From: Cryomorphaceae bacterium BACL11 MAG-121001-bin54
Lineage (GTDB): Bacteria > Bacteroidota > Bacteroidia > Flavobacteriales > BACL11
DNA: 34,081 nt
Reading direction: 5' to 3'
Assembly: GCA_905182255.1 (NCBI GenBank)
Contig: CAJJAH010000003.1
Location: forward strand, 92,101-126,181
Shown: positions 13,001 through 30,875 of the stretch, piece after piece
How positions within the stretch are numbered: the stretch's first letter is position 1
Layout of the letters: the number at the start of each line of letters is the position of its first letter
Program-made: the position numbers and the translations under genes
Notes under the pieces: generated by a model
Told to the model about the DNA's origin: nothing
What the model saw: the letters and a program-made list of their open reading frames with translations, nothing else
The model's database searches: none

Positions 13001-14722
13001 ATGGGAAATACAATTTCAATACCCACACGTCCAATAAGAAAATTTGTTCCTGAAGATTTAGTAATTAATTCTTGGAATAAAATTAAATCCTTATTTGATA
13101 ACTTAGATGATAGAGAAATCAATTCTGTTCTTGAATTAGAGCAATGGATGTTAGACCAATCTGAACTTTCTGCAGTTTTAGAGGAAGATATGGCTTGGCG
13201 TTATATCAAAATGAACATAGATACTAATGACCAAGAATTAGGAGAGCAATTTTCATTTTGGATTAAAGAAATATCTCCGAAAACAGCTCCTTATTCTCAT
13301 AAATTAAATTTAAAATTAGTTAGTAGTCCTTATTTAAAAGACCTTGAAAAAGAAAAATATCGCATCTATTTAAGAAGTGTGAAAAAACAAATTGAAATTT
13401 TCCGAGAAGATAATATTCCTTTGTTTACTACAATGGAAGAAAAGCAACAGGAATATGGTGCTATTTCTGCAAAAATGTCTATTGAAGTAGATGGTAAAAA
13501 GATGACTATGCAGAAAGCTGCACTATTGTTAAAAAGTACAGATAGAGCTAAAAGAGAAGAAATTTATAATAAGATAAGTAGCAGAAGATTGCAAGATGAA
13601 AAAGTATTAGATGATTTATTTGATGAATTAATTTCTTTAAGACAGAAAATTGCAAAAAATGCTGACTTTGATAACTATCGGGATTATATGTTTGCCGCTA
13701 TGGGTCGTTTTGATTACACTCCTAAAGATTGTTTTAATTTTCATGATGCAATAGCAAAAGAGATTGTCCCAATAATTAACTCTTTTGAACAAAAAAGAAA
13801 AAATAAATTAGGAAATGAGTCCTATAAACCTTGGGACACAGCTGTTGATGTTGATGGACTTCCGCCTTTAAAACCTTTTGATGGAGGGGCAGAACTTACT
13901 GACTTATCCATTGAATGTTTTAATAGGTTAAGACCTTATTTTGGAGAATGTCTTTCCACAATGAAAGCCATGAAACACTTGGATTTAGAATCAAAAAACG
14001 GAAAAGCACCTGGAGGTTTTATGTACCCGCTTTATGAAATTGGTGTCCCATTTATTTATATGAATGCTGTTGGTTCTCAAAGAGATCTCGTTACTATGGT
14101 TCATGAAGGAGGTCATGCTGTACATTCTTTCTTAAGTAGAGATTTATCATTAACAGAATTCAAATCTACTCCTTCTGAAGTTGCTGAATTAGCTTCTATG
14201 GCTATGGAATTATTGTCTATGGATCATTGGGATGTATTTTATTCTGATGCAGCTGATTTAAAAAGAGCAAAACTTGAACAATTAGAAAAAGCTTTAGAAA
14301 CTTTACCTTGGGTAGCTTCTATTGATAAATTCCAACATTGGATTTATACTACTGAACATACAGCACAACAAAGAAAAGAGAAGTGGCTATCCATTTCTGA
14401 TGAATTAGGGAATCAAATTATTGATTGGGAAGGAAATGAAAATGTACACGCAAATCTTTGGCAAAAACAATTGCATTTATATGAAGTACCTTTCTACTAT
14501 ATTGAATATGGAATGGCACAACTAGGAGCAATTGCTATGTGGCGTTCATATAAACAATTAGGAGAGCAAGGACTTGATAATTATATGAATGCACTTAAAT
14601 TGGGATACACAAAAACAATAGGGGAGATATATGAAACAGCAGGAATCAAATTTGATTTCTCAGCAAGCTATGTAAAAGAACTAGCTGATTTCATAAAAGA
14701 AGAATTAGAAAAGTTAAGTTAA
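13001..14722 (+). CDS. M3 family oligoendopeptidase (PepF-like)
   Basis: A zinc metallopeptidase that degrades short peptides in the cytosol. The 573 residues include an N-terminal helical domain and the catalytic motif HEGGH (His368, Glu369, His372). A third zinc ligand is expected in PSEVAE (Glu396), as in thimet-oligopeptidase-like enzymes. Substrate-binding residues appear near FYYIEYGMAQLGAIAMW (about residues 498-514). There is no signal peptide. It is the second gene of a unit with DUF5606. Repeat copy 1 and its 12-bp stem terminator follow. Confidence 0.95.
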   Translation: MGNTISIPTRPIRKFVPEDLVINSWNKIKSLFDNLDDREINSVLELEQWMLDQSELSAVLEEDMAWRYIKMNIDTNDQELGEQFSFWIKEISPKTAPYSHKLNLKLVSSPYLKDLEKEKYRIYLRSVKKQIEIFREDNIPLFTTMEEKQQEYGAISAKMSIEVDGKKMTMQKAALLLKSTDRAKREEIYNKISSRRLQDEKVLDDLFDELISLRQKIAKNADFDNYRDYMFAAMGRFDYTPKDCFNFHDAIAKEIVPIINSFEQKRKNKLGNESYKPWDTAVDVDGLPPLKPFDGGAELTDLSIECFNRLRPYFGECLSTMKAMKHLDLESKNGKAPGGFMYPLYEIGVPFIYMNAVGSQRDLVTMVHEGGHAVHSFLSRDLSLTEFKSTPSEVAELASMAMELLSMDHWDVFYSDAADLKRAKLEQLEKALETLPWVASIDKFQHWIYTTEHTAQQRKEKWLSISDELGNQIIDWEGNENVHANLWQKQLHLYEVPFYYIEYGMAQLGAIAMWRSYKQLGEQGLDNYMNALKLGYTKTIGEIYETAGIKFDFSASYVKELADFIKEELEKLS

Positions 14723-14743: not shown

Positions 14744-14803
14744 AGTTCGATTACCGTAAGGCCCACCAAAAAGAAACCCACTCAATTAAGTGGGTTTCTT
14801 TTT
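14744..14803 (+). repeat. Polar intergenic repeat copy 1 (divergent) with terminator hairpin
   Basis: This is the most degraded copy: AGTTCGA is joined to TTACCGTAAGGCCCACC, with about seven bases missing between them. The loop is GTAA. The terminator hairpin is a perfect 12-bp stem AAGAAACCCACT / AGTGGGTTTCTT (14771-14782 / 14789-14800) with T-runs on both sides. It lies between the convergent peptidase and SnoaL-like genes and probably ends both. Confidence 0.85.
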
Positions 14804-14825
14804 ATAAATTACGATAATTTAATAA

Positions 14826-15317
14826 TTATTCAGATAATTGTTTGTAAAATTTACGAGCATCCCAATAGTCTTGTTCTTGAAATATCTTGCCATCTTTCAT
14901 TTTAACAAGGGTTGCGCCATAAACATTAACTTTTTTACCACTTTCAGCATGGGTCCCTTTAAAATTCCAGTGCTTAATAAGTTGATCACCATCACCAAAT
15001 AAATTGACAATTAAAAATTCAGAGTCAGGAAAACCTGTAATATATCCTGCATAAGCATTTTTAAATTCTTCTGGACCTGTAGCGTTAACAACTCCATCTT
15101 CATTCAGATGGGTAACATTCTCATGAAGGTATTCATCTAATACATTAATATCTCTCTTAAGAAAAGACTTTTCCCAAGCAGATCTATAATTTTCCATATT
15201 GTCGGATAATAATACTTTTGAATTTTTTAGTTCAGTACATGCATCTGATTCTTTATTAGTACAACTAAATATAGAAAGCACTAATGTTATTAATAATAAT
15301 TTTTTCATTTTTTTCAT
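14826..15317 (-). CDS. SnoaL/NTF2-like lipoprotein
   Basis: A 163-residue lipoprotein: signal peptide with lipobox LSIFSC (Cys19), then one NTF2-like (SnoaL-type) domain. Supporting segments are the helix YRSAWEKSFLKRDINVLDEYLHENV-like region (about residues 43-68) and the strands HWNFKGTHAESGKKV and YGATLVKMKDGKIFQEQDYWDA, which resemble secreted ester-cyclase-like proteins. Catalytic activity cannot be assumed. It stands alone between repeat copies 1 and 2. A second ATG three codons in is also possible as the start. Confidence 0.8.
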   Translation of the reverse strand: MKKMKKLLLITLVLSIFSCTNKESDACTELKNSKVLLSDNMENYRSAWEKSFLKRDINVLDEYLHENVTHLNEDGVVNATGPEEFKNAYAGYITGFPDSEFLIVNLFGDGDQLIKHWNFKGTHAESGKKVNVYGATLVKMKDGKIFQEQDYWDARKFYKQLSE

Positions 15318-15374
15318 TTTTTTTATTTAATGTGTAATAATAATTAATATATACCATTTATAATAAATCTTAAT

Positions 15375-15440
15375 AAAAAAGTTCGAAATAAGGACCGAGA
15401 GGCCCACCAAAAAATAAACCCACTCAAATGGGTGGGGTTT
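15375..15440 (+). repeat. Polar intergenic repeat copy 2 with terminator hairpin
   Basis: Block AAAAAAGTTCGAAATAAGG then ACCGAGAGGCCCACC, loop GAGA. The hairpin is CCCACTC AAAT GGGTGGG, where one pair is a T-G wobble on the + strand. It lies 60 bases upstream of the SnoaL-like gene start and ends 3 bases before the stop codon of the esterase gene. Confidence 0.9.
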
Positions 15441-15443
15441 TAT

Positions 15444-16445
15444 TTATTCAAGAATTATTTTCTTCTCCACCGTTCCATCATCATAGATGTAAAAATGAGG
15501 GGTATTTTTTGTATTTATATTTTTTTGTCCCAACAAATTAAATATTGAACTAAGCTTCTTATTATTATTATTATTTTCAGTTAATTCTGTTGTATTATTA
15601 ACAAAAAGTGAGAAAAAATCCCAAATTTCTTGTTCAATAACAATATCACTATCACCCCAATTATGACCATTGTTATGTGAATATAACCACACTTCATTAT
15701 TTGTTGAACTCGAAAAGTGTTTTTTACTAATTGTAATGTTACCATCATTATTTAAATCTGGAAATGTATCAACATTAAAATTTGTTAAGGAATTTTCATT
15801 TATCCAAAAATCGACTAATGTGTCAACACCCAAATATGGACCCCAAAGTTGATCATATAGATCACCATCATAAAAAGAGGTATTATCGTTATACCCATGT
15901 GTCACAAACATAGGTGCTGGCATATTCGGATTAAAAAGGTTATTAATTGTTCCATTTGGAAATACAGTTCCGGCAACAGGAGCAAAAGCCTTAAAAACAT
16001 TAGAGCCATCAAAGGCAAGTAAATAGGATATTTCACCACCATTTGAAAATCCAGTAATAAACGTGTTATTTGAACTTAATTGATAGTTTGATTGAAGAAA
16101 AGATGCTAAAGATTCTAAAAAATCAATATCATCAACAGTTACACCAGAATGAAAATCATAGCCAACATTCCAAAAATTATTACCCCAACTGCCTGTAGTT
16201 CCTTGAGGATAACAAACAGCAAAACCATTTTGGTCGGCAATAGCATTCATTCCAGAAAAGCTCATTATTCCTTGAGCAGACTGTGCGAACCCATGCGCTA
16301 CAAAGACTAATGGTGCATCTAAAGCAAGATTATTTGGAGAATAATATATATAGTCTCTATTTAATCCATCATGTAGAAAATTAAAGGACTGTTGACCAAA
16401 AATTAAAAAAGGAAAAAATAATAATAGAAGCAGTATTTTTTTCAT
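15444..16445 (-). CDS. Secreted PHB-depolymerase-like esterase with variant T9SS sorting tail
   Basis: A 333-residue exported alpha/beta hydrolase of the polyhydroxybutyrate depolymerase / feruloyl esterase group. The signal peptide is residues 1-17. VFVAHGFAQSAQGI (about residue 48 on) supplies the oxyanion region, and GFSNGG holds the nucleophile Ser134. The catalytic His is probably in HNNGHNWGDSD. The C-terminus (SSIFNLLGQ, then FYIYDDGTVEKKIILE) is a variant T9SS sorting signal also seen on the proteins at 24956-26104 and 30925-32082. So it should be exported by T9SS and kept at the cell surface or released. The substrate is not known. It is bounded by repeat copies 2 and 3. Confidence 0.85.
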   Translation of the reverse strand: MKKILLLLLFFPFLIFGQQSFNFLHDGLNRDYIYYSPNNLALDAPLVFVAHGFAQSAQGIMSFSGMNAIADQNGFAVCYPQGTTGSWGNNFWNVGYDFHSGVTVDDIDFLESLASFLQSNYQLSSNNTFITGFSNGGEISYLLAFDGSNVFKAFAPVAGTVFPNGTINNLFNPNMPAPMFVTHGYNDNTSFYDGDLYDQLWGPYLGVDTLVDFWINENSLTNFNVDTFPDLNNDGNITISKKHFSSSTNNEVWLYSHNNGHNWGDSDIVIEQEIWDFFSLFVNNTTELTENNNNNKKLSSIFNLLGQKNINTKNTPHFYIYDDGTVEKKIILE

Positions 16446-16471
16446 TCTAAAAAATTTTAATTATTTAACTT

Positions 16472-16479
16472 CAAAATTA
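16472..16479 (-). promoter_or_regulatory. Candidate -7 element of the esterase gene
   Basis: TAATTTTG on the minus strand, matching TAnnTTTG, 26 bases before the esterase start codon. Confidence 0.45.
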
Positions 16480-16547
16480 ATAAAAAAGCATGAAAGTAAA
16501 GCTAAATTTTATTTTAAAAAAATTTAAGACATAGTTTAATTCTCTAG

Positions 16548-16611
16548 AAAAGTTCGAACTTAGGAGCGTAAGACCCACCAAAAAGAAACCCACTCAAATG
16601 AGTGGTTTTTT
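16548..16611 (+). repeat. Polar intergenic repeat copy 3 with terminator hairpin
   Basis: AAAGTTCGAACTTAGG then AGCGTAAGACCCACC, loop GTAA. Two bases differ in the stem (GGAGC / GACCC), keeping only the loop-closing C-G pair of the inner stem. The hairpin CCACTC AAAT GAGTGG is followed by seven T on the + strand. Confidence 0.88.
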
Positions 16612-16625
16612 TATTTATTCAAGAA

Positions 16626-16952
16626 TTATTTTAAAAATAAAACCATGTCCCAATTCTTAATTATTCTTTTGGATATATATTTATTAGCATACCCCCACCA
16701 CATAGAACCAACAGATGAATTTAATATCTCAATATAATTCTCATCAGAGGTTCTTGCAAAATGTACTTTATAGATATAGTTGCTGACAACAAAAGCTATC
16801 ATTATATTATCTTGCTCAATTATAGGATCATCCCAAGGACTTGTCTGAAGATATAATTCATACAACCAATTAGGCCCTTTGAATAAAACTTCCCTTTTCT
16901 CTTCATCTAAAACAATGGATCTAAAAGTGTCAAAATCTTTTTCAATTTTTAT
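16626..16952 (-). pseudogene. Gene fragment without start codon, wedged between two T9SS gene ends
   Basis: An open frame of 108 codons begins right after the stop of the PNGase F-like gene, in the same frame, and contains no ATG or GTG at its head. It begins ATA AAA ATT GAA AAA; the first usual start is TTG at 16865, giving 79 residues. The protein (NWLYELYLQTSPWDDP, then NIMIAFVVSNYIYKVHF) is not one I recognise. Just after its stop, in another frame, lie the last codons of a T9SS variant tail (KIILE stop): 24 bases at 16609-16632 are identical to the end of the esterase gene at 15438-15461. I read it as a gene fragment inserted in, or replacing, a T9SS gene; a short functional gene with a rare start codon is possible. 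Confidence 0.5.
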
Positions 16953-19900
16953 TTATAGTTTTACTACTTTTTTGATTGTTTTGTTATCATCAGTGGATAT
17001 GAAATAAATTCCTTTTGACAAATTTCTAATATCAATTTTATGAGTATTATTATTTTTATCTATATTAATAGCACTTACGATTCTACCAATATTATCTGTT
17101 AAAATAAGTTTTGAGGAATTTGCTAAATCACCGATTACTATAATCTCATTAGTTGCAGGATTGGGAAATATTGTAATATTTATATCATTAATTTCAGAAT
17201 TTGATGATGCATCCTCAACTCTAAATTCATGATGAATAAATCTCCCAAAATCACCATCAAAAGATTTTAGCCAACTTGCTCCAATCTCACGAAATCTAGC
17301 CATTCCTCCTCCATCATTATTTGCCCAAAAATCGAATCCATCATCATCGGTATCAGTGATTTTAAAAACATAGCAGCCATTATCAAAGGTTAGCGTATCT
17401 CTAAATTGTGTGTTTGAGATTAAATCACCACTAGCATATATTGAGTTCTCATTATTATCAAAGAATTCCCATGAAGATTCGGAAACTTGAGTCGAAGAAT
17501 TTACCACCCCACTATTTGTTTGAAACCACAATGCAAAGGTATTTGGATAGGTAGGAGCAGATTCAAAACTAGAATTCATAATATTATTAAAATAATACTG
17601 ATCAGTTGCATTATTAGGCAACGAAATTATAACATGAAATATATTATTATTGGCAGCTATATTACTCCATAAAGAAGCGGGGTCAGGCAATTCAACTTCT
17701 TCTTTTTCAAGAAAATTAAGATTTCCATTCCATTGATACATTTCATGTGATGTAGCTCCATTAGCCCAATATTCAATTTGTAATGAAGTTAATGTTGTAT
17801 TTCCAGTATTTTGTATTGTAATTTTAGGTTTTGAACATAGAGGATTAGTTCGCACGTGTAGTATTTGATTGGTAGGAGATAAAATATCAACAATAGCAGC
17901 ATCTAAAGAGTGATTAGGAGTCCCGTAACTAACTAATTGACTACTTACCCAATAATTTGAGGCTCCTGTCGCACTACTTACCCCATAATCAATATTATGA
18001 ATTTGTCCTGGATTTACCAATTGTGTAATATCATCCTCTCTTACGTCAGAGGCTTGACCTGGGCACCAACCAGCTCTATCATAAATCCAAGTGCCACCTT
18101 GAGGATAAACAGGATTTTTTGCACACTCTGTCCAAACCGGCCAAATATATTCTTGAGTCCCTCCATCTATATTTAAATAATGATTTTGTGAAATAAATTC
18201 GCCCTGCTGACCGTGCCCAGTAATGGTTGTTCTTAGCTTATATGCTGAAGCATTTAAATGCATCAATACATCTCTTGGCTCAAAGGCATCATCAGCCATA
18301 ATTGCCCCATACCCTTTTGATTGCGGCCTCCATATTTGTTGCATTTCTAATACATCTCTAGTAGGTGTCCCAACAATAAATAAAAATTTAATATCCATAT
18401 CTTCTTGCCATTCTCCACCACCACCCATTGTGATTTGTTTATTTCCTTTTAAAACTGGAGCGTAATCGGTAACATCAAAATACCATGTTTTACCATCTTG
18501 GCCTAAGTCTAGCCCAATTCCGTAAGGAGTAACAAAGGACATAATTTGAAAGGACATTGGATAACGTTTATAATAGATTAGATCTATACTATCCATAATA
18601 GTAATTGATCCATCAATGTTCGTAGTATCTACACTTAATACATTTCCATTTGCATCAAACAAATAAGATAATGCCTCCCAATAAGTGTCAGTAGAAACAG
18701 TAGCAATACTGTCATTTTGTAAAGTTCCATAATTGGGCACTATTGCGTATTGTGTAACAGTATTTGCGCTAGCAATTAATGAATCTAAAATAGTATTAGT
18801 TAATAAAGTTAAATAATATTGACCTTGGTAAAAGTTAATATTTGGTCGAGAATTTACTTCTGTAAAAAACTGACCTATTTCATTTCCTCTGGTATAATTC
18901 CAATTAATATTTCCGCTAAAAGTTGCAATTTGTTGATTTATTGTATTATCTAAAGATGTTGTCCCTTGACCCTCATTTAAAGGATAATGAGCAACTAAAT
19001 TTGAATAATCAGGATGTAAATTATCAATTCGTTTTATCATCCAATCATTTATAGTTGCTCCAGAAAGTTCTTTGTCAAAAATTCTTAACTCTTTAATGTG
19101 ACCATCCCAAAAAAATCCGTTTCCATTACCATTACTTGCTAATTTTAATGTTGCAATATCTATTGTTCTGGTATGTCCAGTTCCTGAGTGCCACAATACA
19201 CCATTTCTGTATATTTTCAAATCTCCTGTAGTTGCATTTTTTGTAAATGCCCAATGACTCCATCCGTCAGTATATTCACTTAATGATGCTGCTTTGTCAA
19301 TTCTATCATAAGATGTGTTTCCGCTATTCCCACAGTCCCAATACATACTGCCATTACTCCATGGGAAGTGTATATTTAAAGTTCTGTAATTATTGGCATC
19401 ATATCCTTCTATTATTGTAGTGTTTTGGGGTAATACATTAGCATTCCCATTTATCCAAAATGAAACAGTAACTTCATTAGAAATGCTGCTTATTGCAGAA
19501 GTTGGCAGATCAATACTTTCAGCAGAATTTACAGTTATATGATTTGCGTCATTTGAAAACAATCCTAAAGTACTGCCCATTTGTTCTCCTTCAATCAAAG
19601 TTATACTTCCATTGGTTGAATTTGTTATTGAGAATTCTACTATAATATTGGACACTGAATCCCAAACAAAATCATTTATGAATTGGAATCGGTTAACTCC
19701 ACTATTAAGAAGTGTATTTGCATTGTAAACTTCCGTAAATCCATTTATATGAGGGTTGATATTGCTTAACACGCTATCAGCAGTCAACTTTAATTTTATT
19801 GTTAAGAAATTTGCTATTTGACTACCACTTAAAACATTTAAAGAAAGAGCGTTGATGGTGTCATTTAAGAATCCTAATGCAACTAACTCATTTGCTTTAT

Positions 19901-20408
19901 ACAAAAACTGAGATTTATGAGAATTTTGATCTGTTGCGATTACGAAATCAAGAGAATCTGAACCACTTCCTACATGAATAGTGTCTTCCGAAATCATTGA
20001 ATTTATTAAAGCGGTTTGCTGCTGATATTGATAATAATTATAAACGGGACTTATTGAATAATTATAAATATTACCAGAAAAAGAGGAAATTGCATAACTT
20101 ACATGATAAGATAAAATAGAATCAACTCTAGAGGAATCATGTATGTATGTGTGGCAGCTATAATCCCATTCTCCACAAGCTACATTATTTCCTCCAGTAG
20201 TATTTATTTGCCCATCTTTACACCTCATATTATAAGATAAAATGATTTTTTCAAAGGTTAGGCTAGTATCAGTTGGAAAATTCGCAATAGTATCTCTAGT
20301 ATTACTTGAATAATCAAAAGTTTGAACAACAATGGTGTCTCCAGGGTTTTGAGCTATAGCGCCCATAATTAAAAACATTGCTGTTAAAAAGTAAAATAGT
20401 TTTTTCAT
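16953..20408 (-). CDS. Secreted PNGase F-like protein with inserted LamG domain and T9SS tail
   Basis: An 1151-residue exported protein; PNGase F-type enzymes cut N-glycans from Asn. The signal peptide covers residues 1-19. The N-terminal region has the motif CGEWDYSCHTYIHD (about residues 78-91), shared with Bacteroidota PNGase-like proteins. A LamG/concanavalin-like domain fills about residues 285-485 (VSFWINGNANV, SHWAFTKNATTGDLKIYRNG, WDGHIKELRIFDKEL). The PNGase F C-terminal jelly roll follows with GHGQQGEF (about residue 730) and PQGGTWIYDRAGWCPGQ (about 766-783). A classical type A T9SS domain ends the protein (FPNPATNEI near 1080, KGIYFISTDDNKTIKKVVKL). Hydrolytic activity is an inference, since the catalytic acids were not aligned. 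Confidence 0.85.
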   Translation of the reverse strand: MKKLFYFLTAMFLIMGAIAQNPGDTIVVQTFDYSSNTRDTIANFPTDTSLTFEKIILSYNMRCKDGQINTTGGNNVACGEWDYSCHTYIHDSSRVDSILSYHVSYAISSFSGNIYNYSISPVYNYYQYQQQTALINSMISEDTIHVGSGSDSLDFVIATDQNSHKSQFLYKANELVALGFLNDTINALSLNVLSGSQIANFLTIKLKLTADSVLSNINPHINGFTEVYNANTLLNSGVNRFQFINDFVWDSVSNIIVEFSITNSTNGSITLIEGEQMGSTLGLFSNDANHITVNSAESIDLPTSAISSISNEVTVSFWINGNANVLPQNTTIIEGYDANNYRTLNIHFPWSNGSMYWDCGNSGNTSYDRIDKAASLSEYTDGWSHWAFTKNATTGDLKIYRNGVLWHSGTGHTRTIDIATLKLASNGNGNGFFWDGHIKELRIFDKELSGATINDWMIKRIDNLHPDYSNLVAHYPLNEGQGTTSLDNTINQQIATFSGNINWNYTRGNEIGQFFTEVNSRPNINFYQGQYYLTLLTNTILDSLIASANTVTQYAIVPNYGTLQNDSIATVSTDTYWEALSYLFDANGNVLSVDTTNIDGSITIMDSIDLIYYKRYPMSFQIMSFVTPYGIGLDLGQDGKTWYFDVTDYAPVLKGNKQITMGGGGEWQEDMDIKFLFIVGTPTRDVLEMQQIWRPQSKGYGAIMADDAFEPRDVLMHLNASAYKLRTTITGHGQQGEFISQNHYLNIDGGTQEYIWPVWTECAKNPVYPQGGTWIYDRAGWCPGQASDVREDDITQLVNPGQIHNIDYGVSSATGASNYWVSSQLVSYGTPNHSLDAAIVDILSPTNQILHVRTNPLCSKPKITIQNTGNTTLTSLQIEYWANGATSHEMYQWNGNLNFLEKEEVELPDPASLWSNIAANNNIFHVIISLPNNATDQYYFNNIMNSSFESAPTYPNTFALWFQTNSGVVNSSTQVSESSWEFFDNNENSIYASGDLISNTQFRDTLTFDNGCYVFKITDTDDDGFDFWANNDGGGMARFREIGASWLKSFDGDFGRFIHHEFRVEDASSNSEINDINITIFPNPATNEIIVIGDLANSSKLILTDNIGRIVSAINIDKNNNTHKIDIRNLSKGIYFISTDDNKTIKKVVKL

Positions 20409-20412
20409 AAAG

Positions 20413-20420
20413 CAAACGTA
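20413..20420 (-). promoter_or_regulatory. Candidate -7 element of the PNGase F-like gene
   Basis: TACGTTTG on the minus strand matches TAnnTTTG; it is only 4 bases from the start codon, so the message would be nearly leaderless if this box is used. The T-rich flank of repeat copy 4 begins 10 bases upstream. Confidence 0.4.
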
Positions 20421-20430
20421 CTTAAAAATT

Positions 20431-20513
20431 TCTTAAAAAAGTTCGAACTTAGGACCGAGAGGCCCACCAAAGCGGAATCCATCTCATTATGAGTTAAGAT
20501 TCCGCTTTTTTTA
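20431..20513 (+). repeat. Polar intergenic repeat copy 4 with exchanged terminator stem
   Basis: The block TCTTAAAAAAGTTCGAACTT, then AGGACCGAGAGGCCCACC, is perfect consensus with loop GAGA. The downstream hairpin is different from all other copies: outer stem AAAGCGGAATC / GATTCCGCTTT (20469-20479 / 20498-20508) around an inner CTCAT T ATGAG, then a T-run. It ends the thrC message in the minus direction. Confidence 0.92.
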
Positions 20514-20537
20514 TTCTCATAAATACCTGAAGATATT

Positions 20538-21830
20538 TTACTTACCTAATAATAAATTTTTAAACTCATTATAATTAGAAATTTTAGTAAATATTTTTTT
20601 CTTCAAAATTATCTTTTCAATAGATTCGGGAGGTTTTAACTTTAAATTTAGGTTCTTTTCAATATGATTTGAGAATTTTATTGGATGGGCTGTTTCAAAA
20701 AAAACACCCTTAAAATTACAATTTAAATTTAGATATTTTTTCAAGCCTAAATAACCAATTGCACCATGAGGATCAAGAATATATTTACAATCCCTATATA
20801 CTCTCTTAATAGTATTAATAGTTTGATCATCATTAAAACTAAAAGATGATAAATTATCTTTAAGTAGATTAAAATCATTGTATAATTCTTCAATTCTAAT
20901 AAAGTTACTAGGACTTGACACATCCATTGCATTTGAGATTGTCTGAACTGTAGTTCTGGGATTATAAGTTTTTGTCTCTAAGTATCTAGGGATTGTATTA
21001 TTAGCATTTGTACTAGCAATAATATGATCAATTGGCAATCCTAGTTTTTTAGCCATTACACCAGCACAAATATTTCCAAAATTACCACTTGGAATACTAA
21101 AAACTAATTTTTTATCAGATTGGATAATTTGTTTGAATGCAAAAAAATAATAAAACATTTGAGGTAACCATCTTGCTATATTTATAGAATTCGCAGATGT
21201 TAAATTTAATTTGATATTTAATTCCTTATCAATAAAAGCATTTTTAACCATATTTTGACAATCATCAAAAGTACCATTCACTCTGTATGCAGTTATATTT
21301 TTTTTATTAGTTGTAAGTTGTCTTTCCTGTATATCACTAACCATATCCTTAGGATATAAAATCACAACATTTACCCCCTTAATATCTAAAAATCCATTGG
21401 CAACTGCAGCACCTGTATCTCCTGAAGTTGCAACAAGAACAGTAGTTATCTCACTATTTGATTGATTAAAATAACTAAGGCAATTTGCCATAAATCGTGC
21501 TCCAACATCTTTGAAGGCAAGAGTTGGTCCATGAAAAAGCTCTAAAGTTTGTATACCCTCTTCAATTTCAACTAGTGGAAAATCAAAATCTAAAGTATTT
21601 TTTATGATTATTTTTAAATCTTTTTCATTAATTTCATCACCAATAAATTGCCTTATTACTTCATAAGCAATATCAGTATTTGAAATATTTTGTAAATTTT
21701 CAAAAAAAGATTTTTCTAGTTTATTAATTTGTTCTGGAAAAAATAAGCCACCATCGTCAGCTAATCCAATTTTTAATGCTGTTTCAAAATTTACACTTGA
21801 TGAAATTCTATTTAAACTCCTATATAACAT
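20538..21830 (-). CDS. thrC: Threonine synthase
   Basis: ThrC converts O-phosphohomoserine to threonine with PLP. The 430-residue protein has the family N-terminus (LYRSLNR, then FETALKIGLADDGGLFFPE) and the PLP lysine in FHGPTLAFKDVGARF (Lys107). The phosphate-binding SGDTGAAVANGF and the SGNFGNICAG segment follow. The start is the ATG at 21830, one base after the thrB TAG (TAGAATG); the frame runs a few codons further to a TTG at 21845 inside thrB, which is less likely. It forms a two-gene unit with thrB and is bounded by repeat copies 4 and 5. Confidence 0.95.
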   Translation of the reverse strand: MLYRSLNRISSSVNFETALKIGLADDGGLFFPEQINKLEKSFFENLQNISNTDIAYEVIRQFIGDEINEKDLKIIIKNTLDFDFPLVEIEEGIQTLELFHGPTLAFKDVGARFMANCLSYFNQSNSEITTVLVATSGDTGAAVANGFLDIKGVNVVILYPKDMVSDIQERQLTTNKKNITAYRVNGTFDDCQNMVKNAFIDKELNIKLNLTSANSINIARWLPQMFYYFFAFKQIIQSDKKLVFSIPSGNFGNICAGVMAKKLGLPIDHIIASTNANNTIPRYLETKTYNPRTTVQTISNAMDVSSPSNFIRIEELYNDFNLLKDNLSSFSFNDDQTINTIKRVYRDCKYILDPHGAIGYLGLKKYLNLNCNFKGVFFETAHPIKFSNHIEKNLNLKLKPPESIEKIILKKKIFTKISNYNEFKNLLLGK

Positions 21831-21831
21831 T

Positions 21832-22761
21832 CTACTTGATTTCAATTATTTTTATTCCTATATCATTTATTGGAGAAACATGAATATCAAATTCAATATC
21901 TATTTTATCATAAATCTCTTTCATAGATAAAGCAATATTGTTTGCTGTAGAAAAACCTTTAGAAAGAGCAAAAACAGATGGCCCCGAACCAGAGATACCA
22001 CAACCTAAAGCTCCATTAGATAGACTTGTTTTTTGTAGTTCATTAAATTTTGGAATTAACTTAGATCGTAAAGGTTCAATTACATTATCCTTAATAGACC
22101 TACCAATTAATTCATAATCCTCAGTATATAGACCAGCTATAAATGACCCAATATTAGCAGATTGTTCTGTCATTTGTTTTAGTGAAATATCTTTTTTTAA
22201 AATCGCTCTAGAATCTTTAGTTCTTACTTCTATCTGAGGATGAATAATTGTAAACACAAGCTCAGAAGGAGTAGATAACTTAAAATAATCATACGCTGAA
22301 CCATCTCTTACAAAAGTAAACCCACCTAAAAGAGCCGCTGCAACATTATCAGCTATTAAGGAGCCGCACGCTACCTTCTCACCTTCCATTGCAAACTTTA
22401 TTAATTCCTTATTTGAATAAGGCTTACCAATTAATTGATTTATTGCAAAAACACTTCCAGCAGCGCTAGCTGCACTACTGCCAATACCACTACCTGGCTT
22501 TACCCCCTTATGAATTTCAATTTCAAAACCACAATTAACATCAGTTTCTTTTAATAAAGCAGAAGCAGAGACACCCGCTACATTTATATTAATATCTTTA
22601 GTAAGTTTTTGCCCGGTTACTTTAGTTATAACTATACCTCTCTCTCTTTTTTTTCTTACAACTATTTCATCACCAACTTTATCAAGACAAGCTCCTAAGA
22701 TATCAAATCCACATGACAGATTTGCAACAGTTGCAGGTGAGAAAACTCTAATTTCATTCAT
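21832..22761 (-). CDS. thrB: Homoserine kinase
   Basis: ThrB phosphorylates homoserine, supplying the substrate for the adjacent thrC product. The 309 residues show the GHMP-kinase layout: SPATVANLSCGFDILG (residues 8-23), the ATP-binding GVKPGSGIGSSAAS (86-99), and the C-terminal GCGISGSGPSVFALS motif. The usual thrA (aspartokinase-homoserine dehydrogenase), which often precedes thrB in Bacteroidota, is not here; repeat copy 5 and lipoprotein genes are upstream instead. Confidence 0.95.
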   Translation of the reverse strand: MNEIRVFSPATVANLSCGFDILGACLDKVGDEIVVRKKRERGIVITKVTGQKLTKDININVAGVSASALLKETDVNCGFEIEIHKGVKPGSGIGSSAASAAGSVFAINQLIGKPYSNKELIKFAMEGEKVACGSLIADNVAAALLGGFTFVRDGSAYDYFKLSTPSELVFTIIHPQIEVRTKDSRAILKKDISLKQMTEQSANIGSFIAGLYTEDYELIGRSIKDNVIEPLRSKLIPKFNELQKTSLSNGALGCGISGSGPSVFALSKGFSTANNIALSMKEIYDKIDIEFDIHVSPINDIGIKIIEIK

Positions 22762-22875
22762 TGTACAAAATTGATGATAAGAATATTAATAAACTAATAA
22801 TATTAAATAAAAATGTTAATTATACGTAAAGTGAGTGAATGAGTTTTTATTTTAAATAAATTAGCTCTAACTATT

Positions 22876-22944
22876 CTTAAAAAAGTTCGAACTTAGGACC
22901 GAGAGGTCCACCAAAAATAAACCCACTCATTTGAGTGGGTTTTT
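22876..22944 (+). repeat. Polar intergenic repeat copy 5 with terminator hairpin
   Basis: CTTAAAAAAGTTCGAACTT, then AGGACCGAGAGGTCCACC. A T replaces the usual C in the right arm and makes GGACC-GAGA-GGTCC a perfect 5-bp hairpin. The terminator hairpin is AAACCCACTC ATTT GAGTGGGTTT. About 18 bases upstream of the repeat (ending CTCTAACTATT) are also shared with copy 7. Confidence 0.92.
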
Positions 22945-22976
22945 ATTTAATACATAATCATGATAGTAACAATTCA

Positions 22977-23666
22977 CTATTGGCAATCTTCACTAAAATA
23001 AATTTGAGAATCAACATTTGTCCAATTATTTGTTGACCAATTACTATCGTCAACCTGAACACAACTAAGATTAGGGCAATCTGATATACTTAGACTTGTT
23101 AAAATATGATTTAATCCATTCTTTAAATCAAGATTCCCTAATGAGGAGCTAAAAATTGATAGGTGTTTTAATGAACTAAAGTCTTCTATACCTGTAAGAT
23201 CAGAAATTCCAACGGTAGGAAGCCAAGATGCAATGATTAAAGATTCTTGATCTAATAATTCAGTAAAAACATAATTATTATTACTGATAAAATCTCCCCT
23301 TGTATTAAAGGGATTTCCAAGGCTAAATTGTTCATTTTCAAGATATGCCTCAAAGTTGTTATCTGGAACATAGGTTTTATTACAATTAGAAAGATAAAGA
23401 CAACCATCATTATTACCAACAACATTATTATAATTATAATTACAGGCAGCAGGATCATTACACCCAAGACATGAATAATCACAACCATAGGCTCCATTAT
23501 GATTTTGAGCACTAGCATTTGCTTCTGGATCATAATTACAAGCTATTGGGTCCATACAACCATGAATAGCATCTGGATCTGGAAGAAACATAAATTGATC
23601 ATTTTCTTCAAATTTCTCACAGGAAACAATTAAAATTGGAATAAATAAGAATAAAAACTTTTTCAT
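22977..23666 (-). CDS. Lipoprotein with Asx/Cys-rich GCxDPxACNY repeats and leucine-rich segment
   Basis: A 229-residue lipoprotein with lipobox ILIVSC (Cys16). Two Cys-rich repeats follow (HGCMDPIACNYDPEANA and LGCNDPAACNYNYNN, about residues 35-80), a motif frequent in marine Bacteroidota surface proteins and possibly calcium-binding. Then comes VPDNNFEAYLENE with a short leucine-rich region (LTGIEDFSSLKHLSIFSSSLGNLDL) and a Cys-containing end. It is probably surface-exposed; no enzymatic motif is visible. It is a single gene between repeat copies 5 and 6, with an unusual palindrome upstream. Confidence 0.75.
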   Translation of the reverse strand: MKKFLFLFIPILIVSCEKFEENDQFMFLPDPDAIHGCMDPIACNYDPEANASAQNHNGAYGCDYSCLGCNDPAACNYNYNNVVGNNDGCLYLSNCNKTYVPDNNFEAYLENEQFSLGNPFNTRGDFISNNNYVFTELLDQESLIIASWLPTVGISDLTGIEDFSSLKHLSIFSSSLGNLDLKNGLNHILTSLSISDCPNLSCVQVDDSNWSTNNWTNVDSQIYFSEDCQ

Positions 23667-23670
23667 GAAA

Positions 23671-23678
23671 CAAAAATA
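23671..23678 (-). promoter_or_regulatory. Candidate -7 element of the Cys-rich lipoprotein gene
   Basis: TATTTTTG on the minus strand, matching TAnnTTTG, only 4 bases before the start codon. Exactly 13 bases further upstream begins the AAAGTATTATGCT element shared with the promoter at 33042-33049. Confidence 0.5.
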
Positions 23679-23691
23679 ATACTTTAAAAAT

Positions 23692-23711
23692 AAAGTATTA
23701 TGCTAAGCATA
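23692..23711. promoter_or_regulatory. Degenerate copy of a palindromic operator-like element
   Basis: AAAGTATTATGCTAAGCATA matches the first 20 bases of the perfect palindrome at 33063-33089. The right arm has decayed after AGCATA. It starts 14 bases upstream of the -7 box, the same spacing as in the other promoter. Confidence 0.6.
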
Positions 23712-23715
23712 GTTT

Positions 23716-23779
23716 CTTAAAGAAGTTCGAAATTAGGAACGAGAGGCCCACTAAAAAGAAACCCGATCATTATGGGTTT
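23716..23779 (+). repeat. Polar intergenic repeat copy 6 (weak hairpin) overlapping a stop codon
   Basis: CTTAAAGAAGTTCGAAATTAGG then AACGAGAGGCCCACT, loop GAGA. The hairpin is short, AAACCC / GGGTTT with a 9-base loop and no T-run on the + strand. The stop codon of the patatin-like gene (23778-23780) lies in its right arm. Confidence 0.85.
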
Positions 23780-24632
23780 ATAGAAAGTTAGTATTAAGGA
23801 AATCTATACCCTTTTTAAAACCACAATGATAATCTCGTATTAAATCTTCTTTGCTAGTTCCAACTACTCCTGACTTTAAGAGATTGTCAGGACAGATCTG
23901 TAGAATCTTTATGTTTTTATGTTTTTTCGTTAAAAAATCTACAGCTTCATTATAATTATTCTTTTCTTTAAAGAAATTATCACTTACATGCGGCTTACTC
24001 TTCCACCAATATCCAGCAAGCAAGGACAAATAACTTAATCCATCTAATTTATAACCTAAAGGGTGTGGTCTAATAACAATTATTTTATTTGCACCAAAAT
24101 CAGATGCTGATTTTGCTGGTATTGCATCAGACCATGCTCCATCCATTAAATTTACCCCATTAACCTTACATTTACCTTTAGTAAAAAATGGCAATGAAGA
24201 AGTTGCTCGTAGACATCTATAAATAGTCTTTTTGTTTGGCTCTAAATAAACAGCTTCACCATTATCTAAATTTGTACCTACTATATAAAATTGTTTATTC
24301 TCAGTAGAATCCTTAATATTTTGTAATTCTAACGGTTTATTTTTTTTAGCATATTCTGTTAAAAACTTTAAATCCATATATCCTTGTTCTGAAAAGGCAT
24401 GTTTATAGCTTAAGAATTCCTCATTAACAGATACTTCTTTTGAAAGCGAAAAATATGATTTGTATTGACCAGTTATATAATAAGTTAAAGACATTGCCCC
24501 ACTTGAAACACCTATATAAATATCAAAAGGATTAAATTTATTCATTAAAAATGCATCTAAAACCCCCGCTGAAAAAACAGATTTAAATCCCCCTCCTTCA
24601 ATTACTAATGCTATTTTTTCTTTTTTCTTCAT
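23778..24632 (-). CDS. Patatin-like phospholipase family protein
   Basis: A 284-residue cytosolic or membrane-associated lipid acyl hydrolase. The oxyanion loop is EGGGFKSVF (GGG at residues 13-15). The nucleophile elbow GVSSG gives Ser43, and the second dyad residue is in MDGAWSDAIP (Asp164). This arrangement and length fit the bacterial patatin group that includes YjjU-like proteins. There is no signal peptide. It is a single gene between repeat copies 6 and 7; its last codons run into repeat copy 6. Confidence 0.88.
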   Translation of the reverse strand: MKKKEKIALVIEGGGFKSVFSAGVLDAFLMNKFNPFDIYIGVSSGAMSLTYYITGQYKSYFSLSKEVSVNEEFLSYKHAFSEQGYMDLKFLTEYAKKNKPLELQNIKDSTENKQFYIVGTNLDNGEAVYLEPNKKTIYRCLRATSSLPFFTKGKCKVNGVNLMDGAWSDAIPAKSASDFGANKIIVIRPHPLGYKLDGLSYLSLLAGYWWKSKPHVSDNFFKEKNNYNEAVDFLTKKHKNIKILQICPDNLLKSGVVGTSKEDLIRDYHCGFKKGIDFLNTNFL

Positions 24633-24648
24633 ATCTGTTTTATTATAG

Positions 24649-24656
24649 CAAATATA
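24649..24656 (-). promoter_or_regulatory. Candidate -7 element of the patatin-like gene
   Basis: TATATTTG on the minus strand matches TAnnTTTG, 16 bases before the start codon. An inverted repeat AAAAACTATGC / GCATAGCTTTTT (24661-24685, one bulged base) sits 4 bases upstream and covers the place of the -33 element. Confidence 0.5.
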
Positions 24657-24708
24657 ATATAAAAACTATGCGTGCATAGCTTTTTATGGTAAATTAACTC
24701 TAACTATT

Positions 24709-24780
24709 CTTAAAAAAGTTCGAAATAAGGACCGAGAGGCCCACCAAAAATAAACCCACTCATTTGAGTGGGTTTTATTT
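24709..24780 (+). repeat. Polar intergenic repeat copy 7 with terminator hairpin
   Basis: CTTAAAAAAGTTCGAAATAAGG then ACCGAGAGGCCCACC, loop GAGA. The hairpin AAACCCACTC ATTT GAGTGGGTTT lies inside an extended AAAT/ATTT pairing. About 18 bases upstream of the repeat match copy 5. Confidence 0.92.
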
Positions 24781-24834
24781 TATAATTAATTATGAAAAAA
24801 ATACTTTTAAATAAAAGCCCCACCGTATTCCCAA

Positions 24835-24932
24835 CTAAATATCCTTAAAGTTAGCGTCAGGTATATTTACATTAGAAGGCTGCCCAAAACCAATAAAAGT
24901 AAGCAAATTAATATTAGTAGTAATTTTTTCAT
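24835..24932 (-). pseudogene. Truncated, frameshifted start of a T9SS leucine-rich-repeat protein gene
   Basis: On the minus strand an ATG at 24932 begins MKKLLLILICLL, a close copy of the signal peptide of the CAP-domain gene upstream. After one frameshift it continues IGFGQPSNVNIPDANFKDI and stops at 24835-24837. NVNIPDANFK is the usual start of leucine-rich-repeat T9SS proteins of this group. The 23-base spacer before it (24933-24955) matches the spacer before the gene at 26104 in 20 of 23 positions. It is a 5' remnant of a duplicated cargo gene. The stretch from 24781 to 24834 holds nothing I can name. Confidence 0.7.
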
Positions 24933-24955
24933 GATCTTAGTTGTTTGTTAATCTT

Positions 24956-26104
24956 TTATTCAAGAATTATTTTTTTCTCAACTGTTCCATCATCATAGAT
25001 GTAAAAGAGTGGTGTATTCTTTTTCTCATTTGTTGATTGACCAAATATGTTTGTAATTTTTAATAGTTCTCTTTTGTTTGGATAAAGTTCAATTGTAGAA
25101 GTACTTTGATTGATACAGGAGCAGGAGTCTTCATCCCATACAGTCAAGTTAGGGCAATTTGGTGGGTGAACTAGATTAGAACCATTCATTTTAGTCATTA
25201 TAATAACTTCATAGCTGTAAGGAGGTACAATAATGGGCGGTTGGTTTGCAATGGGTAGTACTATAGAAAAACTTGATATGTTTATAGTATATTTTTCATC
25301 CTCAGAGCTATTTAGGTTTAAATAAGCCTGATCAGGCACCCATACTATTGTATTATCACCTATTATTGCACCTCCAGGATACGCCGGTTCAATTGTTAGA
25401 GGAATATTTATTCCTTGCTCATCAGTCATAGATATTGTAGTATTACTAAAGTCTGCATCTGGCATAGACAAAGACCATCTCTCAAATACTAAGGGAGCAG
25501 GGAAAAAACCTTCAGATGGATAAGCTACAAATTCATAGAATGGCGCGTTAAAACTCGGGATATCCGCCACCCAGGTTACATTTGTATTATCAGTAGAACC
25601 TGTTCCAAAAGTATTTGCTCTTGTGTATAAGAGCCATCTTCTATGTCCAACAAAGTAATTGTGACTTCCAGGATCCTCTATCATTCCAGTTATAGCTCCT
25701 GAGGAATGTCTACCAATAACTAAATTGGAATTTGCAGCAGCAGATGCTCCATCTGTGGTATAACAATTCCAACTTGCTGGGGGGTAATGATCTACTGTTC
25801 CATTTGCCTCCATCATTAATGCTGATTCTTGGCATTTTTGATTTAAAATTGGGTCAAAGATAATGTCTGAAGGCAATCCTACTAAATCTCTAAAATAGTT
25901 TATTCTATCTAGTGTATTGTTTATTGAGAGAGTTGAGATTGTACCGGGATCACAAGTGTTTATATTTCCCGTCCATCCTAATTGAGGTGTTGAAACCTCA
26001 CTGCCTAAATATATATTATTGTAATTGTCAACTATTTGTTGTCTATCACATTGCCCAAACCCAATAGAGGGTAAGCAAATTAATACTAGTAGTAATTTTT
26101 TCAT
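24956..26104 (-). CDS. Secreted CAP-domain (SCP/PR-1-like) protein with variant T9SS tail
   Basis: A 382-residue exported protein. The signal peptide (MKKLLLVLICLPSIGFGQ) is followed by a CAP domain at about residues 60-200: NTLDRINYFRDLVGLPSD, LNQKCQESALMMEANGTVDHYPP, and DPGSHNYFVGHRRWLLY, which carry the family's His and Glu positions. A beta-rich region (about 215-310) follows, then a linker with Cys-rich CPNLTVWDEDSCSC. The end LLKITNIFGQSTN, then FYIYDDGTVEKKIILE, is the same variant sorting signal as on the esterase. CAP proteins have diverse roles and none can be assigned here. It is co-transcribed with the upstream secreted protein (23-base gap). Confidence 0.82.
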   Translation of the reverse strand: MKKLLLVLICLPSIGFGQCDRQQIVDNYNNIYLGSEVSTPQLGWTGNINTCDPGTISTLSINNTLDRINYFRDLVGLPSDIIFDPILNQKCQESALMMEANGTVDHYPPASWNCYTTDGASAAANSNLVIGRHSSGAITGMIEDPGSHNYFVGHRRWLLYTRANTFGTGSTDNTNVTWVADIPSFNAPFYEFVAYPSEGFFPAPLVFERWSLSMPDADFSNTTISMTDEQGINIPLTIEPAYPGGAIIGDNTIVWVPDQAYLNLNSSEDEKYTINISSFSIVLPIANQPPIIVPPYSYEVIIMTKMNGSNLVHPPNCPNLTVWDEDSCSCINQSTSTIELYPNKRELLKITNIFGQSTNEKKNTPLFYIYDDGTVEKKIILE

Positions 26105-26127
26105 AATCTTAGTTGTTTGTTAAGCGT

Positions 26128-26901
26128 TTATTCTATAATTATTTTTTCACTTACATTTTGACCAGAGTCTAAGTCTGTGATTTTAATTAAATAAGTTCCT
26201 TGAGTTAAGGTTTGAATATCAATTGTAGATTGGTTTGTTGTACTGATCATTATTCTTCCTTGTAAATCATAAATAGTTGCCTCATATTTTAGGTTGCCCG
26301 AAACATCAATATTGATCATATCTATTACCGGATTTGGATAAATAGCGAATGCTCTATCATCTAACTCTATTTGATTAGTACTCAATATGTTTTGATAGAT
26401 TCGTATCTCATGTACGTTGCCCTCACAAGAACTAATAGCTAGTTCGCTTAAAAAGCCTTCAGTAGGGTTTTCAATTATTATGGTTTCAAGCGTACCATTA
26501 ATAGAGTTTCCTGGATTATTGATTGTGTTTCCCACAGTATTTATGATCATCCCAGTACTATCCATTAAATGAGAGAAGGTACATTGTGGACTAAAATAAC
26601 TGCAATAACTTATAACGTCAATCTCTACTTTTTGGATGTTTTGTAAACCTGATAAATCAACAGATAGTCTTGATGGGTAAAGCCATACATATGTTGGCTC
26701 TACATCAAAATAACAAGCTCCTGCCCCACAATCATCACTAGTTCCAATGACAAAGCTAAGATCTAAATTTTGTTCTGTCCAAATATCATTACAATTCGTG
26801 TTTGAAGAAATACTGTCAAGAGTGAGAGTTATAGATTGCCCTGAAGCTATTAACTGTAAAAAGAGTAAAAATGCGAGTGATAAGATCTTGTTTTTTTTCA
26901 T
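26128..26901 (-). CDS. Secreted protein with classical T9SS type A sorting domain
   Basis: A 257-residue exported protein with signal peptide residues 1-21 (ending LIASGQ). The central part (about 25-170) is beta-rich with several Cys residues and no domain I recognise; it reads like a small jelly-roll (VEIDVISYCSYFSPQC, ELAISSCEGNVHEIRIYQN). The C-terminus AIYPNPVIDMINIDVSGN, YDLQGRIM and LTQGTYLIKITD ... SEKIIIE is a full type A T9SS domain. It is the first gene after a duplicated dyad-promoter element and probably forms a unit with the CAP-domain gene. Confidence 0.75.
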   Translation of the reverse strand: MKKNKILSLAFLLFLQLIASGQSITLTLDSISSNTNCNDIWTEQNLDLSFVIGTSDDCGAGACYFDVEPTYVWLYPSRLSVDLSGLQNIQKVEIDVISYCSYFSPQCTFSHLMDSTGMIINTVGNTINNPGNSINGTLETIIIENPTEGFLSELAISSCEGNVHEIRIYQNILSTNQIELDDRAFAIYPNPVIDMINIDVSGNLKYEATIYDLQGRIMISTTNQSTIDIQTLTQGTYLIKITDLDSGQNVSEKIIIE

Positions 26902-26924
26902 AATCGTATTGTTAATTTAGACAA

Positions 26925-26956
26925 CAAAATTAGGTAATAGAGTTAGAGTACCACAA
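26925..26956 (-). promoter_or_regulatory. Promoter of the 26128-26901 gene (TTG-N21-TAATTTTG)
   Basis: On the minus strand a -33 TTG (26954-26956) and a -7 TAATTTTG (26925-26932) are 21 bases apart, the full Bacteroidota pattern, 23 bases before the start codon. The TTG lies in the 30-base direct repeat and directly abuts the dyad at 26957-26972. Confidence 0.65.
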
Positions 26957-26978
26957 TACGCTATAAAGCGTAATTTAA
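26949..26978. repeat. 30-base direct repeat, copy A, with 16-base dyad
   Basis: Thirty bases identical to 27199-27228, exactly 250 bases away. It contains the perfect dyad TACGCTATAAAGCGTA (26957-26972). The dyad centre is at about -43.5 relative to the start expected from the promoter at 26925-26956. Confidence 0.9.
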
Positions 26979-26991
26979 TAAAGGAGTTTAA

Positions 26992-27041
26992 TTAAAAAAC
27001 CATGCATATTTTAAGCATTCTATTAAAAGTGAGAGGATTTA
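26992..27041 (-). pseudogene. 3' remnant of a second LuxR-family regulator gene
   Basis: The minus-strand frame ending here reads ILSLLIECLKYAWFFN followed by TAA. It parallels the end of the intact regulator next door (HFSNCLKYKCFFN and stop). The spacing to the following dyad repeat is also similar. Upstream the frame is closed by a stop and then interrupted by an inverted-repeat element. The 337-base gap 26902-27238 thus contains a gene remnant, two dyad repeats, two promoters and the inverted repeat. Confidence 0.55.
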
Positions 27042-27048
27042 TACCGCC

Positions 27049-27123
27049 ATACACCTAACTTCTCTATACCTATTAAAGCATGTATTATGAAAACTAAGTT
27101 TATTTAGAGAAAGTTAGGTGTAT
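27049..27123. repeat. Inverted-repeat element, about 75 bp
   Basis: Arms ATACACCTAACTTCTCTA (27049-27066) and TAGAGAAAGTTAGGTGTAT (27105-27123) pair perfectly except for one extra A; 38 bases lie between. It follows the LuxR remnant and could be a small MITE-like insertion or a long hairpin. No T-run follows in a way that makes a good terminator. Confidence 0.7.
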
Positions 27124-27175
27124 TTAAGTAATCTATTGAAAAATTAATTTGTATTTAATAATAAGTTTTACAAAA

Positions 27176-27206
27176 CAAAAATAGATTTTATCTTTAGTTA
27201 CCACAA
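27176..27206 (-). promoter_or_regulatory. Promoter after the second dyad repeat (TTG-N20-TATTTTTG)
   Basis: On the minus strand TTG (27204-27206) and TATTTTTG (27176-27183) are 20 bases apart. The dyad directly abuts the TTG. No intact gene starts right after it; it faces the LuxR remnant and, further on, the secreted-protein gene. Confidence 0.6.
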
Positions 27207-27228
27207 TACGCTATAAAGCGTAATTTAA
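27199..27228. repeat. 30-base direct repeat, copy B, with 16-base dyad
   Basis: Identical to 26949-26978. The dyad TACGCTATAAAGCGTA is at 27207-27222 and ends 17 bases from the LuxR-gene stop codon (27239). With the promoter at 27176-27206 its centre falls at about -42.5. Confidence 0.9.
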
Positions 27229-27238
27229 GTCAAGCGGT

Positions 27239-27922: not shown

Positions 27923-27926
27923 ATCA

Positions 27927-28016
27927 TTATGACGGGTTAGATTTCCAAGTATTAATTAGCCTTGAATTTTCTTTTTCATATTCTATGATTAAATGAGGGC
28001 CATTATATACTTCCAT
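27927..28016 (-). pseudogene. 5' fragment of the LuxR-family gene, before the frameshift
   Basis: ATG at 28016 encodes MEVYNGPHLIIEYEKENSRL and then INTWKSNPS before TAA at 27927-27929. Removing one base around 27930-27932 joins WKSNP to HNDVVYREELIEYLD of the main frame and gives a protein of about 258 residues. The ATG lies 16 bases after the stop of the TPR-like gene, the expected operon spacing. Confidence 0.65.
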
Positions 28017-28032
28017 AATGATATTTTAGTAT

Positions 28033-29463: not shown

Positions 29464-29471
29464 TAGAATGA

Positions 29472-30851: not shown

Positions 30852-30875
30852 ATTTTTAATTTTTATTATATAAAG

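Follow-up and report, generated by a model that had tools for sequence, protein, structure and literature searches.

Repeats that mimic tRNA 3′ ends as probable junctions between mobile gene cassettes in a Cryomorphaceae bacterium

Classical integrons are, to our knowledge, thought to be rare in Bacteroidota, and the tycheposons credited to Hackl et al. 2023 are said to be aquatic, tRNA-bound elements with a tyrosine recombinase and turnover of cargo. Islands that grow by the addition of cassettes at tRNA genes are known from Alteromonas and Ca. Methylopumilus, and for the latter the cassettes are described as separated by repeats of a tRNA 3′ end (PMC4119200, PMC5217437, PMC10872708); PMC10872708 also describes tycheposons. 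The locus reported here resembles such additive flexible genomic islands in that cassettes appear to be added behind a conserved tRNA, with fast turnover and metabolic cargo, and in that insertion appears to proceed by site-specific recombination at that tRNA, as judged here from sequence alone. It differs from the islands of Ca. Methylopumilus in that the repeat, which we call the block, is not a copy of the 3′ end of the adjoining tRNA and in that one block serves several tRNAs; moreover, the cassettes are often single genes with their own promoter-like box and terminator. The likeness to tycheposons lies in the aquatic setting, the tRNA at one end of many block arrays and the turnover of cargo. 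The differences are that no recombinase was found among the 25 commonest of the 142 Pfam families in block cassettes (109 cassette proteins), and that the cassettes in the window, i.e., the whole 34,081-nucleotide stretch of DNA analysed, are only 0.6-4 kb, plus one interval of 7.5 kb.

Chromosomal integrons share with this locus an array of single-gene cassettes, a site at one cassette end, an anchor site and shuffling. In contrast to them, no integrase above the cut-off was found, the block is short and tRNA-like, most genes lie on the strand opposite to the site, and the cassettes carry their own predicted promoters (TAnnTTTG at a fixed position) instead of being promoter-less and read from one array promoter. 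The block system works like an integron without the integron's tested features, and a canonical integron is not supported. Searches of open-licence PubMed Central gave no account of this block.

We propose that each copy of the block very probably marks the place where two mobile gene cassettes meet, joined at CCAC, with the block as an attachment site that mimics a tRNA 3′ end. The sequences themselves show the shuffled order of the cassettes, the pooled crossover at CCAC, the presence of cassettes at tRNA 3′ ends and transfer between species. On the + strand of the window, the candidate cassettes are a SnoaL cassette (14763-15407); an esterase-like cassette (15404-16578); the cassette of a 1151-aa protein with Laminin_G_3, N-glycanase_C and Por_Secre_tail domains (16575-20467); a thrC-thrB cassette (20464-22911), within which thrC (20538-21845) and a thrB-like GHMP kinase gene (21832-22761) lie on the - strand; a cassette for a 229-aa protein without Pfam match (22908-23751); a patatin-like phospholipase cassette (23748-24744), found behind another block in contig C2 of the same assembly; a 7.5-kb multi-gene interval between two blocks, with six ORFs of at least 90 aa (24741-32294); a cassette for a 217-aa protein without Pfam match (32291-33122); and a methyltransferase cassette (33119-34009), whose gene lies on the block's strand and which occurs in contigs C1 and C5 with other neighbours. 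Besides copy 4, type-A blocks lie on the + strand at 15381-15407, 16552-16578, 22885-22911, 23725-23751, 24718-24744, 32268-32294, 33096-33122 and 33983-34009. The 7.5-kb interval also contains a 51-bp direct repeat (26949-26999 and 27199-27249; 80% identical, 250 bp apart).

Copy 4 is the putative meeting point of the 1151-aa gene cassette and the thrC-thrB cassette, which brings a different hairpin type. Its block GTTCGAACTTAGGACCGAGAGGCCCAC (20441-20467, + strand), a type-A attachment site at the right end of the cassette with gene 16953-20408, agrees with the predicted consensus at 27/27 positions. The CCAC at 20464-20467 (+ strand) is the putative crossover point. The hairpin behind it (20469-20508, + strand), with which the thrC-thrB cassette starts, has the unusual arms that had been described, AAAGCGGAATC (20469-20479) and GATTCCGCTTT (20498-20508), which are perfectly complementary over 11 bp, and it retains the inner CTCAT (20483-20487) and ATGAG (20489-20493). 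Folded by itself, the hairpin stretch reaches -18.5 kcal/mol (z -6.8, with 0/200 dinucleotide-shuffled sequences as good), and folding of the block by itself (20431-20468) is not significant (z 0.28).

The hairpins behind other blocks bear on what had been concluded from copy 4. After repeated, short or N-containing right flanks were left out, 216 sites gave 202 distinct right flanks, of which 157 have a hairpin and 45 have none by the criterion used (z-scores from single-base shuffles). The arms are of the CCCAC/CCCGC type in 101 of the 157, GCGGAA in 11 and other in 45; several stems thus stand behind the same block, as the original prediction anticipated, and the type of copy 4 is not unique. 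The prediction had ascribed the joint change of both arms to selection for a stem but not for its sequence. Given the diversity of arms and the presence of a hairpin in 157/202 flanks, the stem is indeed mostly kept and its sequence free, but through exchange: the arms of copy 4 did not evolve jointly under selection, and a whole neighbouring cassette, bringing its own terminator, would have been joined at CCAC. The further proposal that the block is a separate module is borne out by site pairs that share one flank, in which the block tracks the left neighbour and the hairpin the right neighbour. Copy 4's own hairpin also occurs in identical form without a block, directly behind tRNA-Val in genomes G007 and G013, and this is explained because the 3′ end of the tRNA stands in the block's place there. 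GTGGG is present in 109/202 right flanks, consistent with the earlier argument against a general CCCAC/GTGGG switch; a riboswitch or attenuator pairing the two was rejected, GTGGG being absent from copy 4 and many other hairpins and the two halves coming from different cassettes. A small RNA was likewise rejected, because a search of the window against Rfam at gathering score gave 0 matches and the block alone does not fold significantly.

In the source genome (G000; a 1.04-Mb assembly, 53% complete), a tolerant block pattern gave 24 clustered matches and the reversed-pattern control 0, and the family is therefore not due to chance. The pattern was found in 39/100 genomes, i.e., G000, 37/51 other genomes of the same family and 1/48 from other families, with no match in 14/51 same-family genomes; most of the relatives are MAGs. 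A scan of the genome_contigs collection yielded 142 exact block sites on 105 stretches, which record titles place in Flavobacteriales or elsewhere in Bacteroidota; the exceptions are L089, L112 and L121, whose labels, like those of L127 and L140, may be binning errors. The viral collection gave no exact block. A GNRA loop pattern is present in 89/95 unique blocks.

The order of the units is not fixed, even within the source assembly. In contig C5, window segments 15413-16618, 14755-15411, 20423-22958 and 33054-33871 are reordered at 98.5-99.7% identity, and the gene units meet at the repeats; further joints lie in C2 and C1. At the six C5/C2/C1 joints, wherever a partner is recognisable, the block variant matches the partner on the left or the hairpin matches the partner on the right. 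At C5:1781, for example, the thrC-thrB hairpin stands directly behind the block of the SnoaL cassette. Contigs C3, C5 and C2 could be strain variants or partly misassembled; yet the same joints occur in other genomes. As a separate observation, window 23719-34081 matches C2:1-10364, such that C2 and C3 overlap by 10 kb at 99.8% and diverge at a block, and the G000 bin apparently contains at least two strains.

Across the 216 sites, there were 21 independent pairs with a shared left flank and a dissimilar right one, and 14 pairs with the reverse (thinned greedily from 45 and 22, respectively, each site being used once). Pairs of the left-shared kind agree at 0.95-1.00 over +24 to +26 and at 0.38 at +27; for pairs of the right-shared kind, agreement is close to the background level at the variable positions of the block and 0.86-1.00 over +27 to +31. 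From these profiles, linkage switches at the invariant CCAC (+23 to +26; 20464-20467 in copy 4). All nine left-shared pairs (9/9) with left flanks at least 98.8% identical are unchanged at block positions 0 to +22. Over the whole set of 21, those positions carry no change in 11 pairs, one change in 1 and at least two in 9, the left flanks of these last being 95-98% identical; exchange or conversion left of CCAC therefore also happens. Fresh joints are thus apparently made at CCAC, and over longer times blocks seem also to change or convert.

The same CCAC serves at the 3′ ends of tRNA genes. On the 809-kb contig L114, titled Cyclobacteriaceae, one cassette lies exactly behind the ..GGTTCGAGTCCTGGTGGGCCCAC of a CAT-anticodon tRNA; a G008 cassette matches it at 99.4% identity over 687 bp. 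What this tRNA and the block of the donor have in common is GGNCCAC at the joint and GTTCGA at a different spacing, and little else; the distance from GTTCGA to CCAC is 23 nt in the block and 18 nt in both tRNA-Val and the L114 tRNA. ARAGORN predictions on block-bearing loci showed that the cassette hairpin starts at the same point behind tRNA-Val, tRNA-Met (CAT), tRNA-Arg and tRNA-Phe. A survey of 82 tRNAs, after removal of repeated ones, included 39 distinct tRNAs with a CCAC end: in 24 cases a block follows on the same strand within the next 3 kb, with none on the other strand and none upstream, where the orientation bias is the informative part and 24/39 is not a genome-wide rate, the loci having been picked for holding blocks. 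The equivalent counts for the 43 other tRNAs are 6 downstream on the same strand, 0 on the other strand and 1 upstream. At the tRNA-Val locus, which is marked by an upstream gene for a 403-aa core protein and is also present in G000 (L001:4573-4650), the sequence right behind CCAC differs between genomes; in G007, thrC-thrB comes next after the copy 4 hairpin. Arrays thus appear to start at tRNA genes ending in ..CCAC, chiefly tRNA-Val.

The array in the window, where no tRNA gene was found, starts instead behind peptidase M3 (13001-14722). A degenerate anchor site stands there (14745-14766, + strand), which can be read as a block that has lost 5 nt and has the 18-nt spacing of the tRNA targets. 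Behind peptidase M3 in G000, G004 and G006, a common AAAAAATRATCTCAGTTCGA..AGGYCCACC is followed by three different cassettes. Further versions of the anchor occur in G005, G002 and G001, decayed in the latter two, and the sequence behind each differs. In G011, a full-length block behind peptidase M3 runs straight into the end of the rRNA operon. The 5S rRNA gene faces peptidase M3 in G011, G016 and G027, and there is no block between them in G016 and G027, which suggests that the array entered between these two genes. No anchor was seen by eye in thirteen more distant loci (L218-L230).

Cassettes are also shared by genomes whose core genes have diverged. Measured from one CCAC to the next, the thrC-thrB cassette is identical at 2448/2448 bp between G000 (both the window and C5) and G007, with different neighbours, and the 403-aa core protein beside tRNA-Val is identical at 347/403 positions (86%) between the same genomes. 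Five other genomes (G013, G008, G014 and two further records) have the SnoaL protein at 97.5-100% identity; G000 and G013 agree at 162/162 positions of this protein and at 285/403 of the core protein, for which G000 and G008 agree at 334/403.

In the orientation of its gene, the unit reads CCAC end, block, TTTTTTAGAAAATTATT..GTAAGTTTGC..ATG, gene and hairpin. At 28/87 mapped sites, exactly 33 bp separate the block from the nearest start codon, and an ATG stands at 33 bp at 42/216 sites; TAnnTTTG, which we take to be the Bacteroidota -7 box, is found in 28/37 distinct leaders of the latter kind and in 67/213 left flanks, where single-base shuffles give an expectation of 14.5. The 1151-aa gene has such a promoter-like module (20409-20440, - strand), with a TACGTTTG box, and its start codon likewise lies at the 33-bp distance. 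The blocks enclose 109 non-redundant genes, of which 89 are on the strand opposite to the block; the products of the 109, six of them Por_Secre_tail proteins, represent 142 Pfam families.

Alternatively, ordinary homologous recombination between scattered promoter/terminator repeats could reorder genes, with the block as a shared promoter element and not an attachment site. The repeats, at 60-90 bp and often 80-90% alike, would suit such exchange, as would the fixed distance of the block upstream of many start codons and the block changes in 9/21 left-shared pairs. We nevertheless consider it improbable: linkage switches at CCAC in the pooled pairs and in 9/9 of the closest ones, the tRNA and donor block at L114 share little beyond the short similarity described above, and blocks lie only downstream of CCAC tRNAs and on the same strand (24/39 versus 0/39). 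A canonical or degenerate chromosomal integron, with IntI and unusual attC sites, is more improbable still. It would account for single-gene cassettes with a site at one end, a crossover at the site edge and an anchor-like end site, and XerA/IntI-like genes do exist in some relatives. However, 0/51 genomes reach the curated TIGR02249 cut-off for IntI (G000 being only 53% complete), the targets are tRNA genes, and attC sites have inverted RYYYAAC/GTTRRRY ends, which the 27-bp block lacks. The IntI-like gene (273 aa) has a shared place in G019, G033 and G022, where a contig end cuts it, with no blocks nearby. It was rejected as a general partner, because it falls below the cut-off, is broken in G013 (26 sites) and has no block site found beside it; moreover, the tyrosine-recombinase loci of five genomes that are 97-98% complete and carry block sites (G001, G006, G025, G034 and G024) are at most 37% identical to it, and the remnants in G013 and G012 are 93-95% identical to it. 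This XerA/integron-like tyrosine recombinase (L190:9128-9949, L192:9270-10026, L193:282-1103) keeps common neighbours across several genera.

No recombinase could be tied to the block sites. Larger elements with tyrosine integrases of about 400 aa lie behind tRNA-Val, tRNA-Pro and tRNA-Asp in these genomes, and the 409-aa tRNA-Val integrase might move block cassettes in trans, which would be compatible with the explanation we favour. In G004, G028 and G008 this integrase is found some 270 bp behind tRNA-Val, and its junction falls at the same CCCAC; however, the attR that belongs to it closely copies tRNA-Val (AGTTCAAGTCCCTCATTGCCCAC) and is not a block, block cassettes also stand behind tRNA-Met (CAT), tRNA-Arg and tRNA-Phe, and it is present in G028, where the pattern finds no block. 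We regard its involvement as rather unlikely. The roughly 7-kb tRNA-Val element (L253:649-7750 and L251:12850-5750) is itself 99.4% identical in two genera (G004 and G028), with an integrase protein 100% identical. The integrases at tRNA-Pro and tRNA-Asp and the other ~400-aa ones were rejected, the readable att-like sequences upstream of them matching other tRNA ends (several have no assignable att). The tRNA-Asp integrase (L237:6197-7761 and L243:325-1557), a tRNA-specific member of the same recombinase group, is 94% identical between G008 and G001. A second repeat of about 103 bp, GGTGCAAAAAGTGGTGCAAA .. GTAATCCTGCTACC, occurs in the same arrays (L151, L146, L042, L200, L204 and L150:1233-1335); its end resembles a tRNA-Pro 3′ end and it accompanies the ~400-aa tRNA-Pro integrases, and as a separate repeat tied to tRNA-Pro it was rejected as a terminal anchor. 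Use of the repeats by IS200/605-like, IS110-like or serine-recombinase elements is extremely improbable. The ends of IS200/605 elements have a hairpin next to a fixed tetranucleotide, which the joints resemble; however, Y1_Tnp (IS200/605, REP/RAYT) is found in only 2/32 same-family genomes searched, the DEDD domain of IS110 in 0/14 genomes and a resolvase in 4/14, with none in the block-carrying G006, G025, G034, G012 and G021. XerC and XerD genes were seen in relatives.

For the cassette junctions that we favour, the following mechanism can be proposed. On the + strand, a cassette would run from CCAC through a terminator hairpin, one or more genes, usually antisense, and the gene's promoter to a block ending in CCAC. 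The block would be the cassette's attachment site, imitating a tRNA 3′ end with a T-loop-like GTTCGA followed by ..CCACCA. Cassettes would join at CCAC, either at a block already in place or at the 3′ end of ..CCAC tRNAs (chiefly tRNA-Val); repeated joining would build arrays and reshuffle them. The hairpin, a putative intrinsic terminator brought by the cassette, would end the tRNA transcript when it stands behind a tRNA, and would also serve the convergent cassette gene. We infer that the cassette moves as a circle, and that the hairpin and box have terminator and promoter function, respectively; our best guess for the site-specific recombinase is one acting in trans, most likely of the tyrosine family. 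More tentatively, an as yet undescribed recombinase family, or a known one in a new role, might recognise both the 3′ ends of tRNAs and a compact imitation of them (GTTCGA, spacer, CC-GNRA-GG, CCACCA) and run an integron-like capture in Flavobacteriales, with tRNA genes as landing sites and cassette terminators that keep the tRNA working. The substrates would then perhaps be recognised as folded single strands, by analogy to attC.

Finally, we note what such a system would mean for these bacteria. It raises the question of which recombinase accepts both a tRNA 3′ end and its mimic. The exact cassette borders would make gene flow among streamlined aquatic bacteria countable in metagenomes. If the explanation is true, a core pathway, thrC-thrB, rides on a mobile cassette, and Bacteroidota possess a system of their own for exchanging genes one at a time. 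In a manner resembling integrons, these bacteria apparently rearrange and exchange individual genes, including those for threonine synthesis.
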